Below are positions 5,712 to 39,870 of a stretch of 64,000 nt of DNA, piece after piece. The DNA comes from Archangium violaceum (GTDB lineage Bacteria; Myxococcota; Myxococcia; Myxococcales; Myxococcaceae), in contig NZ_CP069396.1 of assembly GCF_016887565.1 (NCBI RefSeq), forward strand, positions 4,942,001-5,006,000, read 5' to 3'. Below the pieces are notes generated by a model that saw only the letters and a list, made by a program, of their open reading frames with translations, was not told the origin of the DNA and did no database searches. Positions within the stretch are counted from its first letter, which is position 1, and the number at the start of each line of letters is the position of its first letter. Made by a program: the position numbers and the translations under genes.

Positions 5712-7462
5712 CGGAGCGGCTCCTGCCGCGAATCCAATCTCCTGGGGACGTTCGGGCGCTCCCCGAATCCGCCCTGCCTCACCTGTGTGAGGAGTTGCGC
5801 GAGGACATCATCGCCCTGTGTGGCCGCGTGGGCGGTCACCTGGGGGCCTCGCTCGGCGCGGTGGAGCTGATCGTCGCCCTGCACCGTGTCTTTCATTCGT
5901 CCCAGGACGCGCTCGTCTTCGACGTGGGCCATCAGGCCTACGCGCACAAGCTGCTGACGGGCCGGCGCGAGCGCATCGGCACCTTGCGCCAGGCCGGAGG
6001 CATCGCGCCCTTCCTGGACCCGCGCGAGAGCCCTCATGACGCGGTGGCCGCGGGCCACGCGAGCACCGCCGTCTCCGCGGGGCTGGGCATTCTCGAGGGC
6101 CGGCGTCTGCGCGGCCTGCCCGGGCACGTGGTGGCGGTGGTGGGGGATGGGGCGCTCACGGGCGGGCTCACCTTCGAGGGGCTCAACAACACCGGGGGCA
6201 CGCACCTGCCGCTGGTGGTGGTGCTCAACGACAACCAGATGTCTATCTCGGCCAACGTGGGGGCGATCCCCGCGCTGCTGCGCACCCGCGAGGCCCGCGC
6301 CTTCTTCGAGGGGCTGGGCTTCACGTACCTGGGGCCGGTGGACGGGCATGACCTCGGGGCGCTCATCCGGACGCTGCGCGAGGCCCGTGCCTCCACGCGT
6401 CCGGTGGTGGTGCACGCGCTGACGCAGAAGGGCAGGGGTTTTCCGCCGGCCGAGGCGGACGCGCAGACGCGCGGCCACGCCATGGGGCCGTACGAGTGGC
6501 GGGATGGCAAGCTGGTGCGCTCGCGCGGAGGCCAGCGCACCTTCAGCGAGGCCTTCGCGTCCGCGCTGGAAGAGGCGATGGCGAGGGACGCGCGTGTGGT
6601 GGCGGTGACGCCGGCCATGCTGGAGGGCTCGGCGCTGGTGGGCCTCAAGGAGCGTTACCCCGAGCGCGTCTTCGACGTGGGCATCGCCGAGCAGCACGCC
6701 GTCACCTTCTGCGCGGGCCTGGCCGCCTCGGGGCTACGACCGGTGTGCGCCATCTATTCCACCTTCCTGCAGCGCGCGTATGACCAGGTCATCCACGACG
6801 TGTGCCTGCCGGGCCTGCCCGTGCTGTTCGCGGTGGACCGTGCCGGGCTGGTGGGCGCGGATGGCGCCACGCACCAGGGCACTTATGACGTGGCCTCGCT
6901 GCGGCCCATTCCGGGGCTCACCCTGATGGCGCCGGTGACGGGCGAGGATGTGACGGCGATGCTCGCCACGGCGCTCGGTTTGCCCGGGCCCTCGCTGATG
7001 CGCTTCCCTCGGGGAACCCTGCCGTCGCTGCCGCCGGAGCTGCACCCGGGCACGGGTCCGGTCCAGGGGGCGCGCTGGTTGAAGCGGGCCGAGCGGGCGC
7101 GGGTGTGCTTCATCACGCTGGGGCCGCTGGGGCTGGCCGCGCTGGAGGCCGCCGCCGGGGAGCCGGGCTGGAGCGTGCTAGACGCGCGCTTCGTCACCCC
7201 GCTCGACGAGACGGCGGTGCTGGAGGCCGCCGCATGCGGGCGTGTGGTGGTGGTGGAGGAGGGGACGACGCACGGCGGGCTGGGCAGCGCGGTGCTGGAG
7301 GTGCTCGCCGCGCGAGGCGTGATGGCCCGGGTGAAGCTGCAGGGGATGCCGGACACCTTCGTGCCCCATGGGGACGCGCGCGTGCAGCGAGCCGAGCTGG
7401 GCCTGGATGCCGCGGGCCTGCGGCGCGCCGCGCAGGGGCTGCTCGGGGAGGGGACGCCGTGA
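5708..7462 (+). CDS. dxs: 1-deoxy-D-xylulose-5-phosphate synthase, short linker
   Basis: DXS is the thiamine-diphosphate enzyme that starts the MEP pathway by joining pyruvate and glyceraldehyde 3-phosphate. It starts at the GTG overlapping the ispA stop and has 584 residues. The cofactor motif GDGALTGG, DVGHQAYAHKLLTGRR, the GIAEQHAV segment with the catalytic glutamate, and GATHQGTYD are all present. The stretch between NVGAI and GPVDGHD is 33 residues in all, against about 71 in Escherichia coli, so the flexible surface linker between the N-terminal domain halves is almost absent. This explains most of the length difference from the usual 620 or so. The gene is tightly coupled to ispA and tlyA by 4-base overlaps. 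Confidence 0.95.
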   Translation: MTERLLPRIQSPGDVRALPESALPHLCEELREDIIALCGRVGGHLGASLGAVELIVALHRVFHSSQDALVFDVGHQAYAHKLLTGRRERIGTLRQAGGIAPFLDPRESPHDAVAAGHASTAVSAGLGILEGRRLRGLPGHVVAVVGDGALTGGLTFEGLNNTGGTHLPLVVVLNDNQMSISANVGAIPALLRTREARAFFEGLGFTYLGPVDGHDLGALIRTLREARASTRPVVVHALTQKGRGFPPAEADAQTRGHAMGPYEWRDGKLVRSRGGQRTFSEAFASALEEAMARDARVVAVTPAMLEGSALVGLKERYPERVFDVGIAEQHAVTFCAGLAASGLRPVCAIYSTFLQRAYDQVIHDVCLPGLPVLFAVDRAGLVGADGATHQGTYDVASLRPIPGLTLMAPVTGEDVTAMLATALGLPGPSLMRFPRGTLPSLPPELHPGTGPVQGARWLKRAERARVCFITLGPLGLAALEAAAGEPGWSVLDARFVTPLDETAVLEAAACGRVVVVEEGTTHGGLGSAVLEVLAARGVMARVKLQGMPDTFVPHGDARVQRAELGLDAAGLRRAAQGLLGEGTP

Positions 7463-8199
7463 AGCCGCGCAAGGAACGCCTCGACGTGCTGGTGGTGGAG
7501 CGGGGGCTGGCCGAGTCCCGGACCAAGGCCCAGGCGCTCATCCTCGCCGGGCAGGTGGTGGTGGCGGACCAGCGGGTGGACAAGCCCGGGGCGCTGGTGC
7601 CGGTGGAGGCCGAGCTGCGACTCAAGGGCGAGGTGCTGCCCTACGTGTCTCGTGGCGGGTTGAAGCTGAAGGCGGCGATCGAGCGCTTCGGCCTGGACGT
7701 GCGGGGCAAGGTGGCGGCGGACATCGGCGCCAGTACGGGAGGCTTCACCGACTGCCTGTTGCAGGAGGGGGCCACGCACGTGCACGCCATTGACGTGGGC
7801 TACGGGCAACTGCATGAGAAGCTGCGCACGGACCCGCGCGTCCGCTCGCGGGAGCGGGTCAACGCCCGCTACCTCACGGCGGAGGATCTGCCCGAGTCCG
7901 TGGACGTGGTGGTCATCGACGTGAGCTTCATCTCGCTGACGCAGGTGCTGCCGGCGGTGCTGCCCTTCCTGAAGCCGGGAGGACTGCTGGTGGCGCTGGT
8001 GAAGCCCCAGTTCGAGGTGGGGCCCGACAAGGTGGGGAAGGGCGGGGTGGTGAAGGATCAGGCGGCCCGGCAGGAGGCGATCGACACCGTGACGGCCTTC
8101 GTACGGGAGCGGGGCCTGACGGTGCGAGGGGTGATGGACTCGACGGTGCCCGGTCCCGCCGGAAACGTAGAGGCGCTGCTCGTCGCGGACAAATCGTGA
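7459..8199 (+). CDS. tlyA: TlyA family rRNA 2'-O-methyltransferase
   Basis: The protein has 246 residues. An N-terminal S4 RNA-binding domain (about 5-65) is joined to an FtsJ/RrmJ-like methyltransferase domain with the SAM-binding segment DIGASTGGFTDCLL and the KPQFEVG segment near the C-terminus. TlyA enzymes methylate ribose 2'-OH groups of 16S and 23S rRNA, and in mycobacteria their loss gives capreomycin resistance. Homologues are often called haemolysins, which is misleading. The GTG start overlaps the dxs stop, the third coupled junction in this operon, and the gene closes the block. A partial relic copy of dxs and tlyA occurs near 18.1 kb. Confidence 0.93.
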   Translation: MKPRKERLDVLVVERGLAESRTKAQALILAGQVVVADQRVDKPGALVPVEAELRLKGEVLPYVSRGGLKLKAAIERFGLDVRGKVAADIGASTGGFTDCLLQEGATHVHAIDVGYGQLHEKLRTDPRVRSRERVNARYLTAEDLPESVDVVVIDVSFISLTQVLPAVLPFLKPGGLLVALVKPQFEVGPDKVGKGGVVKDQAARQEAIDTVTAFVRERGLTVRGVMDSTVPGPAGNVEALLVADKS

Positions 8200-17084: not shown

Positions 17085-17894
17085 TCACTGCCCGAGCGAT
17101 TGGGGTGGCGGCCTGGCGCTGAAGATGGGCGCATAGCACTCCCCCTGATGTTCGAAGAGCTCGTCCGGGCACGGGGCCGTGAGTTTGTGAGGCCCCCAGC
17201 AGGCGCCGACGAGTTCGACCTCGACGCGGCGAGTGCAGGGAGGGCGCTTCTGTCCTTTGAAGGGCTCGCGAGGAAGAGGGCGGGCGAGCACGGATTGCCA
17301 TTGGGGCGTGGTGTTCTCGAGCCAAGCACTGTAGCGAGGGTCAGGAGTCTCGGTCATCGCCAGGACGTCGTGGCGCATGAGCGGTGGCGGGGCGTTCGCC
17401 ACAAGCCCCGGGCCGCTCGGAGGTTGGAACACAGGGGCCAGATGAACCAGGGCGAAGAGCAGGGCACCCGCTGCGGCGGCACCCGACAGTCCCAATCCCG
17501 GGTGCCACCAGATGCGGCGAGGTCCGGACACGGCGGAGAATGCGCGAGCCATGCGCCCCACGGCCTCGTGTACATCCTCCAGGGTGGACACCAGCGACTC
17601 CACCGATTGCCTGTCGGGAGCCACGGACCACGGGGTTTGCTCTACCTCCATAGCGTCGTAGCCAGGTGTGGCCGAGGAGATGATGCGGACCCGCAGATCG
17701 GTCAGCGGCCCTGTCCTCTCCTCCTTGCTGGCGGCGGGCTTGAGCACCAGGGCTGGCGCCCCGCTCGTCTCGTGCGTGGCCCGGTAGAGTTCCCCCTGGC
17801 TGTACTCGTCCTGCGGCACCTGCTCCTGGAGTTGGTACGGCCCCAGCTGCTCCGCGTCCTCCCAGCGTGACCCGGACTTCTCCTGCTCGTCCAT
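17085..17894 (-). CDS. Kinase-derived membrane protein lacking a catalytic domain
   Basis: The protein has 269 residues. The start resembles the first strands of a Hanks kinase (LGPYQLQEQV and GELYRATHETSGAPALVL, compare GEVYRA), but the glycine loop is gone and no HRD or DFG motif follows. A membrane helix is present at about 139-160. The C-terminal domain has Cys residues in pairs (PPCTRRVEVE, GACW, APCPDELFEHQGECY), a module that I recall at the end of many Archangium/Cystobacter kinases. It is probably a pseudokinase-like membrane protein, or a decayed kinase now retained for its external Cys-rich domain. Short ordered parts of this gene recur near 36.1 kb. Confidence 0.7.
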   Translation of the reverse strand: MDEQEKSGSRWEDAEQLGPYQLQEQVPQDEYSQGELYRATHETSGAPALVLKPAASKEERTGPLTDLRVRIISSATPGYDAMEVEQTPWSVAPDRQSVESLVSTLEDVHEAVGRMARAFSAVSGPRRIWWHPGLGLSGAAAAGALLFALVHLAPVFQPPSGPGLVANAPPPLMRHDVLAMTETPDPRYSAWLENTTPQWQSVLARPLPREPFKGQKRPPCTRRVEVELVGACWGPHKLTAPCPDELFEHQGECYAPIFSARPPPQSLGQ

Positions 17895-18054: not shown

Positions 18055-18147
18055 GCCGCCGGGGAGCCGGGCTGGAGCGTGCCGGACGCGCGCTTAGGCC
18101 GCCGCGTGCGGGCGCGTTGAAACCGGGAGGCCTGCTGGTTGCGCTGG
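18055..18147 (+). pseudogene. Abridged relic copy of dxs and tlyA
   Basis: Three blocks match the dxs-tlyA operon in the same order and strand. 18055-18095 matches dxs 7151-7191 (39 of 41 bases), 18096-18114 matches dxs 7224-7242 (18 of 19), and 18118-18147 matches tlyA 7970-7999 (27 of 30). The intervening sequence (32 bp, then more than 700 bp) is missing. It cannot encode either enzyme. It closes the accessory region that begins just after the intact tlyA. The rest of 17895-18160 shows no other gene. Confidence 0.8.
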
Positions 18148-18161
18148 ACCAGGGGGTAGCG

Positions 18162-18188
18162 GCCGATATATCACTCTGATATATTGGC
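18162..18188 (+). promoter_or_regulatory. Dyad upstream of padR-like gene, likely autoregulatory operator
   Basis: GCCGATATAT (18162-18171) and ATATATTGGC (18179-18188) form a near-perfect inverted repeat (9 of 10) with a 7-bp spacer, ending just before the ribosome-binding site of the PadR-like gene. PadR proteins are homodimers that often repress their own operon from such AT-centred dyads. The AT-rich core stands out from the surrounding DNA and may also contain the promoter. Confidence 0.6.
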
Positions 18189-34427: not shown

Positions 34428-34514
34428 GGTGTACTTCTTTTCTCGAAGCTTCGTTTTCCTTCACTCAGATAGACGAGGCCCGAAAGAAGTGTGACGGCCA
34501 TGGTGCATGGGAGG

Positions 34515-35249
34515 TCACCTGCTTGGGGGCACGGCCTCGGGCTCGTAGCGCGCGAGGAAGACCTTGAACTGAAGCGAGACGAAGATCGGACGCGGCGCCA
34601 CCATTCCGGCCTGGGCGAGCATCGCGAACAGGGCGGCATCGGACTCGACGGGCTGTAGCGTCGAGAAGGCCTGGCGGCGGCGCTCCAGCTCGTCCGGGGG
34701 GGTTCCATACGCGCGCCATCGCCGGAACTCCACGTTCGTCAGCACGGGGTCCTTGCCGATGCGGCAGCCCACGACGAAGGGCGCCCCGGGCTTGAGCCGC
34801 CGGGCCACCTCGCGCAGCAGCTCGAGCCGGGCCTCATGTCCCTGCACATGGTGCAGCACCCCCATCATCTGCGCGCCGTCGAACGGAGGCCGGGGGGGCA
34901 GGGTGTGCAGCTCCCCGACGTGCAGATGCGTCCGGGAGAGCAGCCCCTCGGCCTCCAGGCGCTTCCGGGCGACCGCGAGCATGGCGTCGGAGGGATCGAC
35001 GCCCGTGAAGCGCCAGCCCGGCACGTCGAAGCGGAGGTAGGGCATCAACTCCGCGCCCGTGCCCATGCCCACGAAGAGCAGGGATGCCGCGTCCTGGCCG
35101 TCCAGCTGGCTCGCGAGAGCGCTGACGCCCACCTCGTACAGCGCCTGGGCGCCGGGGAGGCTGATGGCGGCCTGGGCGTCGTAGTGGGCGGCGCGGTCGG
35201 CGCCAAAGCCCGGCACGATGTGGACGTGGGGCGGGTGGGAGTGCGTCAT
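34515..35249 (-). CDS. Class I SAM-dependent methyltransferase
   Basis: The protein has 244 residues from ATG 35249, preceded by GGAGGAAA at ideal spacing. The SAM-binding motif I is LFVGMGTGAEL, followed by the acidic loop GVDPSDAML, and QMMGVLHHV matches motif II. The rest is helical and carries no extra domain. The small, His-rich N-terminus (HSHPPHVHIVPG) is unusual. Substrate unknown: the fold is used for small molecules, lipids and proteins. No neighbouring gene identifies a pathway. Confidence 0.85.
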   Translation of the reverse strand: MTHSHPPHVHIVPGFGADRAAHYDAQAAISLPGAQALYEVGVSALASQLDGQDAASLLFVGMGTGAELMPYLRFDVPGWRFTGVDPSDAMLAVARKRLEAEGLLSRTHLHVGELHTLPPRPPFDGAQMMGVLHHVQGHEARLELLREVARRLKPGAPFVVGCRIGKDPVLTNVEFRRWRAYGTPPDELERRRQAFSTLQPVESDAALFAMLAQAGMVAPRPIFVSLQFKVFLARYEPEAVPPSR

Positions 35250-35598
35250 GGCGTTTCCTCCAGGGGCCCGCGGCAAGCGGGCGCTACGAGGGGGAAGATG
35301 CGCCGGGAGAGTCCGCCACGGGAGAGCGGGGATTCAGGCCGGATCGGCGGGGATTTCGGTCCCGCCGCCTCGGGCCACGCGGACTGGCTCGAGGAATGGG
35401 TCCGGAAATTCGCCAGGGGCGGTGAGGACCACCTGTCCCGCGCCGACCGGACTCCGGTGGTGTGAGGAAATATGCCTGGAAATTCAGGCGCTTGGCGATG
35501 TCGGGTGGAAATTTGAGGGGCGTGTTGATTTCGCCAGCCCTCGTTCGACGTATGGGTAGAAGGAAGCTCCGCTTCCCCAAACCACAGGAGAGTCGACG

Positions 35599-36024
35599 AT
35601 GCGCTTCATGGTGATCATGTACCCGGGCCCCCAGGCCGAGGCGGGCGTTCTGCCGGACGAGAAGACCCTCGCCGAGATGGGGAAGTTCAACGAGGAGCTG
35701 GTGAAGGCCGGAGTGCTGCTTGGCGGCGAGGGCCTCAAGCCGAGCTCGCAGGGAGTGCGCATCAGGTTCCCCGCCGGTGGCAAGCCCCAGGTCAGCGACG
35801 GCCCCTTCACCGAGGCCAAGGAGCTCATTGGCGGCTTCTGGATCATCCAGGTGAAGTCCAAGGAAGAGGCGGTGGAGTGGATGAAGCGCTGCCCCGCCGC
35901 TGGTGGCGAGATGATCGAACTGCGCCCGGTGTTCGAGACGGAGGACTTCGCTCCCAGCGATCCGTCCGGAGACTTGCGGGCGGCCGAGCATCGCCTGCGC
36001 GAGCAGGTGGCCGCGAAGAAGTAG
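35599..36024 (+). CDS. YCII-related (DGPF-type) small protein
   Basis: The protein has 141 residues. The YCII/DGPF fold is clear: start MRFMVIMYPG, central VSDGPFTEAKELIGGFWIIQV with the DGPF signature, and EWMKRCPAAGGEMIELRPV. Family members are small dimeric alpha-beta proteins with a conserved His or Asp, found near ECF sigma factors or as antioxidant-related proteins; their biochemical role is unclear. It has no sigma-factor neighbour here. It is convergent with the arginase gene, with only 57 bases between the stops. Confidence 0.88.
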   Translation: MRFMVIMYPGPQAEAGVLPDEKTLAEMGKFNEELVKAGVLLGGEGLKPSSQGVRIRFPAGGKPQVSDGPFTEAKELIGGFWIIQVKSKEEAVEWMKRCPAAGGEMIELRPVFETEDFAPSDPSGDLRAAEHRLREQVAAKK

Positions 36025-36071
36025 GGCCAATCCAGTCGCGGCGTCCACGCCGTGGCCAGTGGTGTCGCGAG

Positions 36072-36159
36072 GGGGCGTTCGCTACGAGCCCCGGGTCGCT
36101 CGGAGGTTGGACACCAGCGACTCCACCTCCATGGCGTCGTAGCCAGGCGAGGCCGAGGA
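36072..36159 (-). pseudogene. Abridged relic of the kinase-derived gene, fused to arginase 3' end
   Basis: Three blocks match the gene at 17085-17894 in the same order. 36072-36110 matches 17389-17427 (36 of 39 bases), 36109-36126 matches 17586-17603 (18 of 18), and 36125-36159 matches 17644-17678 (32 of 35). The parts between are deleted. On the minus strand the third block still reads [13 protein letters not shown], as [13 protein letters not shown] does in the source, and it now forms the last 25 residues or so of the arginase-like protein. This is therefore both a relic and a source of new coding sequence. Confidence 0.8.
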
Positions 36160-37056
36160 ACTGGGTGCCGAGGTCCCCAGCGCCTCGGTCAGGGCATCCG
36201 CGAGGCCGCGGCCGGCGGATCCGTCCTCGTCGAGCTTGGGATTGTAGATGGCCACCTCCAGCCCCATCGCCTTGCCGCTGGCGATGGCCACCCGGAGTGT
36301 CGTCGTCAGCTCGTCCCAGGAGAGGCCGCCCGCGAGGTGGTAGTCCACAGCCGGCATGAGCTCATCGTCGAGGCTGTCGGCGTCCAGGTGGATGAAGAAC
36401 CCGTCCAGGCCGTCGCGCGTCAGGTGCTCCACAGCGGCCAGGGCCGCTGTCTCGACGCCCATGCGCCGCACCGTCGCCAGGTCGAATGCGCGGAGCCCGG
36501 GCGGCAAGGGCTGGCTGCCGTACTCGGCCTGCTCGTCGGCGTCCCGGAAGCCGAAGAGGAAGGCGTCCTCGTCGCGCACCAGGGGCCCGCGCCCTTCGAG
36601 GTCGGCCAGGAGCGCGGGGCCGTGGCCGGTGGCGAAGGCGAGGTCCATGGAGGCCGCCTCGCCGTTGGGGTTTACCTCGGGCTGGTAGAAGTCCGCGTGT
36701 CCGTCGATGAACAGCAGGCCGTAACGTCCGCGACGCTTCAGCGCGAGGGTGGGCCCAAGCACCATGGAGCAGTCGCCGCCCAGGACCACCGGGAACTCGC
36801 CGGCGGCGATCACCCCTTCCACCGCGTCGGCCAGCTTCGGCGACCACTCGGCGATCGCCTGGGCGTTGAGGGTCCGGGTCTCCGGATCGCGCTCGAAGCT
36901 GTAAGGTGGGACGTCGAGCCGGCCTGCCCGGCGGGCCTCCAGGCGCTCCGCCAGTCCGTGGCCGAGCAACCGCGCCGGGAGTGTCTCCACACCCGTCGGC
37001 TTCAGCCCCAGGTTCGAAGGCGCCTCGATGATGGCGTAGTGGCGGACGTCCGGCAT
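36082..37056 (-). CDS. Arginase/agmatinase-family ureohydrolase with relic-derived tail
   Basis: The protein has 324 residues from ATG 37056, preceded by AGAAGGA. The metal-binding motifs are intact: [19 protein letters not shown] and [10 protein letters not shown], which carry the His and Asp ligands of the two Mn2+ ions. The enzyme should hydrolyse a guanidino compound (arginine, agmatine, formiminoglutamate or a related substrate); specificity cannot be read. The last 25 residues are not family-like: they derive from a relic of the kinase-derived gene family (see 36072-36159). It is divergent from the Cys-cluster gene. Confidence 0.87.
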
Positions 37057-37170
37057 GGCGAATCCTTCTCTTTGAGAACCCTCTCGGAGACACCCTTTCG
37101 GCCGAGCCCCCCGGGCCAGCCCTCGCCTGCCCCCTCGCGCGCACGGGTGGCTTGGTGGGGTCGTGGCTAT

Positions 37171-37575
37171 ATGAGTTGCGTGACGACTCCTGGCACACCC
37201 GAATCTCCGCTCTCGATCCTCTGCCGCGGCTGCGGCCTGTGCTGCGATGGCAGCCTCTTCAGCCACGTGGGGCTTGAGGCGGACGAGCTGGAGCGTCTGC
37301 GCGCCCTCGGTATTCCCACGCAGCAGCGGGGGAGTGGGAAGGAGGTGCTTGCGCAGCGGTGCCCAGCGCTCAAGGGCCGTGACTGCCAGATCTACAAAGA
37401 CCGTCCGTCGAGCTGCGCCGCGTACCAGTGCTTGCTCGCGGGCTCCCTCGTCGAGGACCGGATCACACTGGAGGAGGCTCAGGCGGTGGTGCGCAAAGCG
37501 CAGCGGCTGATTGCCGACGGCCACGCCCGACGCTTCCTTCGACAGCGCTTCCGTGGACGCAAGGGCCTCGATTGA
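37171..37575 (+). CDS. YkgJ-type cysteine-cluster protein
   Basis: The protein has 134 residues. Conserved cysteines are clustered as CRGCGLCC, then [20 protein letters not shown] and YQC, the pattern of the YkgJ/Zn- or Fe-chelate-binding family (CxxCxxCC and CxxY..RP..C). The cluster probably binds a metal or an iron-sulfur centre. The remaining part is helical and basic, ending RFRGRKGLD. The ATG at 37171 gives the family start; no strong ribosome-binding site is visible. It is divergent from the arginase gene with 114 bases between, so a shared promoter region is likely. Confidence 0.85.
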
Positions 37576-37592
37576 TCGCCGCCGCCTGTTCG

Positions 37593-37709
37593 CCCCGCTC
37601 CGGAGCGCTCATGCCCGTCGTCGACGCCGTGTACCCCATACGCGAAGCCCTCTCCCGGATGGCGCGTAACGAGATCGTGGGCAAGCTCGTCCTCCGCTGG
37701 GAGGAGTGA
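37593..37709 (+). pseudogene. C-terminal relic of a zinc-type alcohol/quinone dehydrogenase
   Basis: Only about 38 codons are left, reading [19 protein letters not shown], then NEIVGKLVLRW and stop. This is the standard ending of medium-chain dehydrogenases (P-V-(I/V)-D-x-V-(Y/F)-P-(L/I)-x-E-A and G-K-(L/I)-V-L). Nothing upstream belongs to that family, so it is the 3' end of a lost gene. It lies 18 bases after the Cys-cluster gene. Confidence 0.55.
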
Positions 37710-37824
37710 ACGGCCTGCCCGGCTGGCCGCTCACCAATCAATCAAGCTAAAAGCCTCCGCATGCGGAGAGGGGGGACACGGCGGTCAGTGTCCCATGCCC
37801 GCCGTGCATGAACAGGGAGGCAAT

Positions 37825-39870
37825 ATGTTCCGACGTGCAGCATTGCTCGTCCTCTTCGCCGCGGCGCTGGCGGCCTGTGGTGGTGATCCCGATGCCGAGC
37901 AGGATGCGGGCACCCCGCCGGATGCGGGCACCTCGCTGGATGCCGGTGACACCTCGCCGGATGCGGGCACTCCGCCGGATGCCGGTGACACCTCGCCGGA
38001 TGCGGGCACCCCGCCGGATGCCGGTGGCTCTCAGGACACCCAGGCGCCCACCGTTCGCTCCACCTCGCCGGGCAACGGCGCGACCGGAGTGCCACGGGGA
38101 AGCGCCATCCTCGTGACCTTCTCCGAGCCGATGGACACCCAGTCGGTGCGGGTGGAGCTGAGCCCCACGGTGAGCCTCGGCAGCGCGAGCTGGAACACGG
38201 ATGACACCGGAGTCAGCCTGACCCCCCTGGCGGAGCTCTCGCCAGGCACCACCTACGTCCTGACCGTGTCGGGCAAGGACGTGGCTGGCAACAGCCTGAC
38301 GGGGACCACCACCTTCAACTTCACCACCGAGGTGCCCGATACCACCGCGCCCACCCTCCGCGGCACCACGCCCGCGCCGGGGGCCACCAACGTGGACCCC
38401 ACGGCGGCGCTCACCCTGACCTTCTCCGAGGCCCTGGACACTGGCACCTTCAAGGTGGACATCTCTCCGGCGGCGGACATCCAGCTCTCGTGGGACGCGG
38501 CCAGCACGATCCTCACCGTGCTGCCTCCAGCGGCGGGCCTGGCCTACGGCACCCAGTACACGGTGACGGTCAGCGGCAAGGACCTGGCCGGCAACGCGCT
38601 CGGTGGCACGACGGCCTTCTCCTTCACCACCGCTACCCCGCCGGACACCACCCGGCCCACCGTGTCCTCCAGCTCTCCGGTCAATGGCGCCACCAGCGTG
38701 AGCACCTCCACCAGCATCTCGTTGTCCTTCTCGGAGAGCATGAACCGGCTCGCGGTGGAGAACGCGTTCAACGTGAGCCCCTCCGTCACCTGCGCCTTCT
38801 CGTGGAACACCGCCAGCACCCTCGTCACCTGCGCCCCCGCTTCGCCGCTGAGCTACAGCACCCCGTACACCGTGACGCTCGGCACCGGGGCGAAGGACCC
38901 GGCGGGCAACACGCTGGCCTCGGATTACAGCTTCTCGTTCCAGACCGCCTCGGCTCCTGACACCACTCCGCCCACCGTCACCGACTCCACCCCGGCCAAT
39001 GGAGCCAGGGGCGCGGCCCGCTCCGACAGCATCACCGTGGTCTTCTCCGAGCCCATGAACAAGGTCTCGGCACAGACGGCCTTCGCCATCACCAGCCCCT
39101 CCGGCTACAACGCGGGCTACTTCAGCTGGAACACCGAGGGCACGGCGATGACCTTCGACCCGGACAACGACTTCTCCTACGGCACGCAGGTGTCCTGGAC
39201 GGTGAGCAACACGGCGAAGGATCTCGCGGGCAATACCCTGACGGCCGACGTCGGCCGCTCGTTCCGGGTGGCCTACCTGGGCACCGCGTCCCTCTACAGC
39301 GTGGCCGCCCTGGACGGCTACGTGAACAGCGACGGGGTGGTCTCCAGCACGGGTACCATCACGGCGCTCGGCGACACCTTCTCCGGCAAGTTCATGAGGG
39401 GCTTCTACAGCTTCAACCTTGGCGAGCTTCCGGGGACGGTGGCCCGCATCAACAGCGCCACCCTCTACCTGTACCAGGCGGCCAAGGTCGGCGCGCCCGA
39501 CACCGAGTTGGGCACCTTCTGGGTGCAGAGCGTGGATTATGGCACCGCGCTCGACAGGGACGACTTCAACACGCCCGTCATCAAGACGTTCTATTGCCGC
39601 CAGATCGGCGACCGCATCTCCTGCGGGACCTTCGACGATCAGGAATCGCTTTCCGTCACTGCGATTGGCCAGAAGTCCCTGGTGGTGACGCGCAAGGTGA
39701 TGGATGACTGGGCCTACCGCACGGTCCGCGGCCTGCGCTCGCAGTTCCGCCTGCGGTTCGGCACGGACGTCTCCACCGACACCACCGATGACTACGTGAC
39801 CATCTACACGCGCGAGAACTCGACCTCGACGAACTGGCCACGCCTGGCCATCGAGTACGAGTACGAATGA
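37825..39870 (+). CDS. Lipoprotein with four Big_5 Ig-like domains and DNRLRE-like end
   Basis: The protein has 681 residues from ATG 37825, with GGAGG in front. The lipobox is LAAC near residue 18. A Pro/Asp/Ala/Gly repeat linker (TSPDAGTPPDAG) follows, encoded by tandem DNA repeats. Four Ig-like domains of the Big_5 (SbsA) type, about 100 residues each, carry the motif (T/S)FSE(P/A/S)(M/L), a W-N/D-T core and DLAGNxL. The last 180 residues have SLYSVAALDGYVNSDG and ARINSATLYLYQA, as in DNRLRE-type carbohydrate-binding ends. It is a surface adhesion or binding protein anchored in the outer membrane. Function inferred from domain type only. Confidence 0.85.
   Translation: MFRRAALLVLFAAALAACGGDPDAEQDAGTPPDAGTSLDAGDTSPDAGTPPDAGDTSPDAGTPPDAGGSQDTQAPTVRSTSPGNGATGVPRGSAILVTFSEPMDTQSVRVELSPTVSLGSASWNTDDTGVSLTPLAELSPGTTYVLTVSGKDVAGNSLTGTTTFNFTTEVPDTTAPTLRGTTPAPGATNVDPTAALTLTFSEALDTGTFKVDISPAADIQLSWDAASTILTVLPPAAGLAYGTQYTVTVSGKDLAGNALGGTTAFSFTTATPPDTTRPTVSSSSPVNGATSVSTSTSISLSFSESMNRLAVENAFNVSPSVTCAFSWNTASTLVTCAPASPLSYSTPYTVTLGTGAKDPAGNTLASDYSFSFQTASAPDTTPPTVTDSTPANGARGAARSDSITVVFSEPMNKVSAQTAFAITSPSGYNAGYFSWNTEGTAMTFDPDNDFSYGTQVSWTVSNTAKDLAGNTLTADVGRSFRVAYLGTASLYSVAALDGYVNSDGVVSSTGTITALGDTFSGKFMRGFYSFNLGELPGTVARINSATLYLYQAAKVGAPDTELGTFWVQSVDYGTALDRDDFNTPVIKTFYCRQIGDRISCGTFDDQESLSVTAIGQKSLVVTRKVMDDWAYRTVRGLRSQFRLRFGTDVSTDTTDDYVTIYTRENSTSTNWPRLAIEYEYE
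37939..38016. repeat. 39-bp tandem repeat in lipoprotein linker
   Basis: Two nearly identical 39-bp units (37939-37977, 37978-38016), with partial units on both sides from about 37900, encode repeated D-A-G-D-T-S-P-D-A-G-T-P-P. Unit number can change by slippage without frameshift, so linker length may vary among strains. Confidence 0.75.

Follow-up and report, generated by a model that had tools for sequence, protein, structure and literature searches.

An ordered relic of a multi-copy gene forms the predicted C-terminal tail of an arginase-like protein in Archangium violaceum

The final 25 residues of an arginase-like protein encoded by Archangium violaceum come from a shortened relic of a multi-copy gene, which makes this a well-resolved bacterial case of a decayed gene copy that is, by prediction, again protein-coding, as the tail of an unrelated and probably acquired enzyme. 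The relic lies in the window, the whole stretch of 64,000 nucleotides that was analyzed, which is part of contig C1 of a 13.2-Mb genome (G000); five other genomes of the genus were used for comparison, including two referred to here as G001 and G005. With a probability of roughly 0.8, we consider that a redundant copy of the multi-copy gene downstream of the arginase decayed by ordinary deletions, that the neighbor lost its stop codon, and that the tail thus gained is probably neutral. The features concerned are the following, with positions counted in the window.

36082-37056, minus strand: arginase-family gene of 324 amino acids, ATG at 37056 and stop codon at 36082-36084, with matches to PF00491 and to NCBIfam and PDB arginases
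36085-36159, minus strand: part of the relic within the arginase ORF, residues 300-324, a tail found in none of the 80 and 19 homologs examined
36072-36111, minus strand: relic block 1, 37/40 to 17389-17428 (E 2.7e-11), with the present stop codon inside it and a shifted frame
36104-36127, minus strand: relic block 2, 23/24 to 17581-17604 (E 2.5e-5)
36121-36159, minus strand: relic block 3, 35/39 to 17640-17678 (E 1.15e-9), coding for [13 protein letters not shown]
17085-17894, minus strand: intact member of the source family, 269 amino acids, multi-copy, no known domain
18055-18147, plus strand: second relic, three dxs-tlyA blocks in order, matching 7151-7999
7151-7999, plus strand: source stretch of dxs and tlyA that holds these three blocks, matching 18055-18147

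The preliminary description had seen in 36072-36159 three blocks of the gene at 17085-17894, kept in order with the middle removed, and a blastn comparison of 35990-36250 with the window confirms this, the three same-strand blocks being collinear with the gene. With the whole 13.2-Mb genome as the target, block 1 retains an E-value of 2.5e-9 and block 3 one of 1.9e-7. Relative to the intact gene, 160 bp are gone between blocks 1 and 2 and 42 bp between blocks 2 and 3. The three-block relic is therefore real and well defined, and its similarity to further genes of the family, collinear as well, bears out that it is the shortened remnant of a multi-copy gene. The gain of about 25 residues by the arginase frame also holds, as residues 300-324, and possibly S299, come from the relic. 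Through blocks 3 and 2 the arginase ORF keeps the frame of the source gene ([17 protein letters not shown]); it departs from that frame at the 160-bp gap and then hits a TAG inside block 1, half of which lies out of the original frame or past the stop. Block 3 is identical to family genes of G001 (39/39) and G005 (38/38), while block 1 is closest to the gene in the window (37/40, with 32/39 for the G005 gene), and this divided affinity suggests that the progenitor may have been another copy, perhaps an unseen one, or perhaps a mosaic.

The source family has many copies. In its own genome, the gene at 17085-17894 is matched 27 times at E <= 0.01, some of these matches being pieces of one gene, and each of six genomes of the genus gives 12 to 30 matches at E <= 1e-5. 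The sites in the genus that match block 3, at 100% and 92-90% identity, are genes of this family, and the motif in the coding segment that gave rise to the tail recurs within it. The family had been labeled kinase-derived, which the searches do not confirm: no Ser/Thr kinase model of Pfam matches any of 24 members at E <= 1, one member has a weak match to HisKA_3 (histidine kinase; E 0.14), and no kinase is listed in a profile search of PDB sequences with the family. No known domain was recognized in it with Pfam, NCBIfam, or PDB sequences.

The arginase-like protein matches Pfam PF00491 at E 1.8e-25, its 90.4 bits exceeding the cut-off of 22, and scores 103.1 bits, below the cut-off of 227.6, with TIGR01229, the NCBIfam equivalog for true arginase. 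The usual metal-site motif of arginases is GGDHS. In all 22 aligned sequences, the protein and 21 relatives, the His of this motif is replaced by Cys (C96), and in several of the relatives the His of DGHAD is Asn; judged from these residues, the protein and its aligned relatives appear to be a subfamily with an unusual metal site.

Where such proteins normally end was determined from the best 80 of 116 relatives in named genomes. The end falls exactly at the equivalent of residue 298 in 28 of the 80 and one residue later in 16 (together 44/80), and in 66/80 it lies no more than 5 residues ahead of this position or 2 past it, and therefore the relic joins the arginase at about the native stop codon. 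The remaining pattern, seen in 14/80, is an unrelated extension of 3-23 residues. The tail is absent from all 80 by alignment and by a six-frame test for GYDAMEVE. It is likewise absent from the 19 homologs of the order that were examined among the 24 matching genomes besides the host's, this search having covered 145 genomes (E <= 1e-20, at most 15 candidates scored per genome), of which 25 match the arginase, the host's included. The alignment of homologs that the preliminary description had proposed hence agrees that the tail is missing in other arginases (0/80 and 0/19). In a structure predicted from 22 sequences (mean pLDDT 86.8) the core is confident, and pLDDT falls below 50 in segments 301-315 and 317-324 (counting segments of three or more residues), which amount to most of the tail; the model thus indicates that the 25 residues are probably disordered.

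The 80 kept relatives, again the best of 116, share 57-77% identity with the protein over the matched segment, and their record titles are mostly alpha-, beta-, or gammaproteobacterial, the few others including a Myxococcales MAG (68%), an actinobacterium, and a gemmatimonad. The best arginase matches in other genera of the host's own family have 40-48% identity. The genus otherwise yields no arginase match at E <= 1e-20 (five other genomes, at most 15 candidates scored in each), and the weak matches in three of these genomes (26-31% identity, E <= 0.001) look like other arginase-family proteins. With relatives of proteobacterial type, such distant matches in its own family, and none at E <= 1e-20 in the genus, the arginase was probably acquired horizontally from other bacteria. 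In G005, a 5′ fragment of the arginase is found together with the divergent neighbor gene (contig C61, 93% over 537 bp), and the acquisition may perhaps predate the split from G005, with the gene unstable since. At this G005 site (L189 1450-4453) the arginase is cut off near residue 43, and the neighbor gene is split by about 2.3 kb, its two matches overlapping by 5 bp (window 37457-37461), which resembles a transposon target duplication. The host genome itself contains a truncated second copy, comprising the arginase 5′ end and the neighbor gene, at G000:C1:7338352-7338826 (93% over 491 bp to window 36849-37339). Around the relic, the flanks of window 34508-38323 match G005, the content at that place does not, and the neighborhood differs from that in G001 as well. 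No intermediate or empty allele of the arginase locus was found in the five other genomes, nor was an arginase beside a longer family copy, the only trace being the 5′ fragment in G005.

On the reading we favor, a redundant family copy would have lain just downstream of the acquired arginase in the same orientation. One deletion would have joined the two frames by removing both the stop codon of the arginase and codons 1-72 of the copy. Two further deletions inside the copy, of 42 and 160 bp and probably between short direct repeats, would have shortened the remainder. The 160-bp deletion would also have shifted the frame such that translation ends at the TAG within the remnant, leaving an enzyme that retains its core and carries a 25-residue tail, probably disordered and neutral. 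The former full copy at this locus and the sequence of the deletions are thus reconstructed from the observed blocks, their order and frame, the ends of the homologs, and the joints.

The two joints of the relic have overlaps of 8 bp (with one mismatch on one side, and unbroken over 4 bp only) and 7 bp, and the 7 bp are repeated exactly in the G005 and G001 genes that lack the deletion. Simulated random joins in the same gene, with 7% of positions mutated and 20,000 trials, reach 8 bp in 3.9% and 7 bp in 5.2% of cases. Repeated short-homology deletion, which had been suggested as a possible shared process, therefore fits the arginase relic, with its repeats of 7-8 bp at both joints, and the joints probably arose by deletion between short direct repeats, even if two joints are little evidence. 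Shortened family copies occur at the three further places that were looked at, with mixed joints. The copy at 9059225-9059674 of contig C1 retains two segments of a G005 gene (337 bp, 97.6% identity; 237 bp, 95.4% identity); the net loss of 348 bp is clean and in frame, and 6 unmatched bases stand at the joint. A second copy, at 10372837, has lost its N-terminal part beside an upstream flank that shares 99% identity with G005 across 1119 bp; a third, near 9061106, falls short of its nearest relative by about 83 bp. Shortening is hence not rare in this family, and mixed joints are as expected from several ordinary routes of deletion. As side observations, the first of these copies (L015) is still open over 149 codons, and at the second (L010 883-2196) 271 bp stand in place of the lost part with an open frame of 437 codons running across, G005 having an intact gene (L161) at the corresponding place.

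The second relic in the window is also a real ordered, shortened copy, as had been described, with three blocks in order: 18055-18095 matches 7151-7191 (39/41), 18096-18117 matches 7224-7245 (20/22), and 18118-18147 matches 7970-7999 (27/30). Its blocks come from two source genes, and both joints are blunt, with 0 bp of overlap, which does not support short-homology deletion in this case; a repeat shared by both ends of a deletion is found in the arginase relic and not in the dxs-tlyA relic. Directly beside it, at 18141-18169, the downstream neighbor starts to match four of the other five genomes from the genus. The first block is 98% identical to the dxs of G005 and 95% to the host's own dxs. 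A single joint type for both relics was considered and rejected, given overlaps of 8 and 7 bp versus 0 and 0, in addition to the 6 unmatched bases in the further family copy.

The proposal that one shared process produced both relics was also pursued by self-comparison of 864 kb of the 13.2 Mb (464 kb comprising the window and its surroundings, and 400 kb from another place), a scan that sees only sources inside the sampled 864 kb. Out of 1022 short seeds, the 92 that were low-copy and had no longer match nearby were tested, and one pair may count from both sides. This search for further ordered-block relics yielded no third clear case, the two relics of the window being the only clear three-block chains. 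The other strong chain has two blocks of 167 and 47 bp (G000:C1:9036659-9036871, or 36659-36871 of sample B), and the remaining printed chains rest on weak second blocks. The former chain is a multi-copy repeat, ordered, with sources 5.4 kb apart. Differing joints and the lack of a third clear relic in the 864 kb leave the single process unsupported. Finding both relics in a single window is striking, although it was within this window that the findings were selected.

The strongest alternative, which we regard as unlikely, is that a full family copy never stood beside the arginase and that break repair copied short stretches of a family gene there in order, both relics being filler at rearrangement joints. 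The blocks, at 22-41 bp, are indeed very short, and those of the dxs-tlyA relic come from two genes and meet at blunt joints. The sources are on the same strand as the relics, at distances of 11 and 19 kb, and end joining would be possible given that a Ku protein is encoded in the genome. What keeps such repair alive as a rival is that both relics occupy places of changed neighborhood, the dxs-tlyA relic where its neighbor's matches to four other genomes begin and the arginase relic in a stretch that differs from G005 and G001. However, no block of either relic departs from the order or strand of its source, as deletion would predict but copying need not produce. The two relics also have different types of joint, no further clear case emerged from the 864-kb scan, and family copies with ordinary deletions exist. 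We would give very little credence to the broader idea that repair, by copying or keeping short stretches in order, leaves ordered miniatures of nearby genes at rearrangement joints of large myxobacterial genomes, often enough feeding new C-termini to neighbors to matter for protein evolution.

It is improbable, too, that the tail is a functional addition under selection, serving localization, stability, or interaction. Its frame is open, it is joined at the native end with no visible loss of the enzyme, and it stems from a coding segment whose motif recurs in the family, but it is present in only one genome among those examined, has low pLDDT, and includes part of a block of which half is out of the original frame or beyond the stop. 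The unrelated extensions of 14/80 homologs indicate that the end of this enzyme tolerates additions, which counts against a special role for the tail. Chance similarity or a conserved short repeat in place of a relic can be dismissed, since only the shortness of the blocks speaks for it, whereas the E-values in the window range from 2.7e-11 to 2.5e-5, the blocks are collinear, and the genus sites matching block 3 are family genes.

The tail is most likely a clear but ordinary instance of gene decay extending a neighbor, an example and not a new kind. It shows that debris of duplication can lengthen proteins and alone alters no wider picture. Narrow word searches of the literature found no bacterial case quite like this fusion among the papers they brought up, and three known systems offer partial parallels. 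Proteobacterial arginase-family enzymes (PF00491) are homologous to the Archangium protein up to about residue 298 (56-76% identity to the 21 others aligned) and, unlike it, do not have the extra 25-residue C-terminus. In maize fractionation, duplicate genes are lost by deletion, and the deleted stretches are bordered by short direct repeats (Woodhouse et al., 2010; PMC2893956). The Archangium case is similar in that a duplicated gene would have been shortened by deletions flanked by such repeats. It differs in that the family is bacterial and its joint types are mixed, and in that a neighboring enzyme acquired the by-product by fusion. New protein C-termini that arise via loss of the stop codon have been described in Saccharomyces and Drosophila, where they derive from noncoding sequence and are still polymorphic (Andreatta et al., 2015; PMC4494051). 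There, as here, an existing protein is extended C-terminally from formerly foreign sequence through stop loss, whereas in Archangium the organism is a bacterium, the added DNA is the remnant of a gene read partly in its old frame, and the stop codon would have been lost via deletion.
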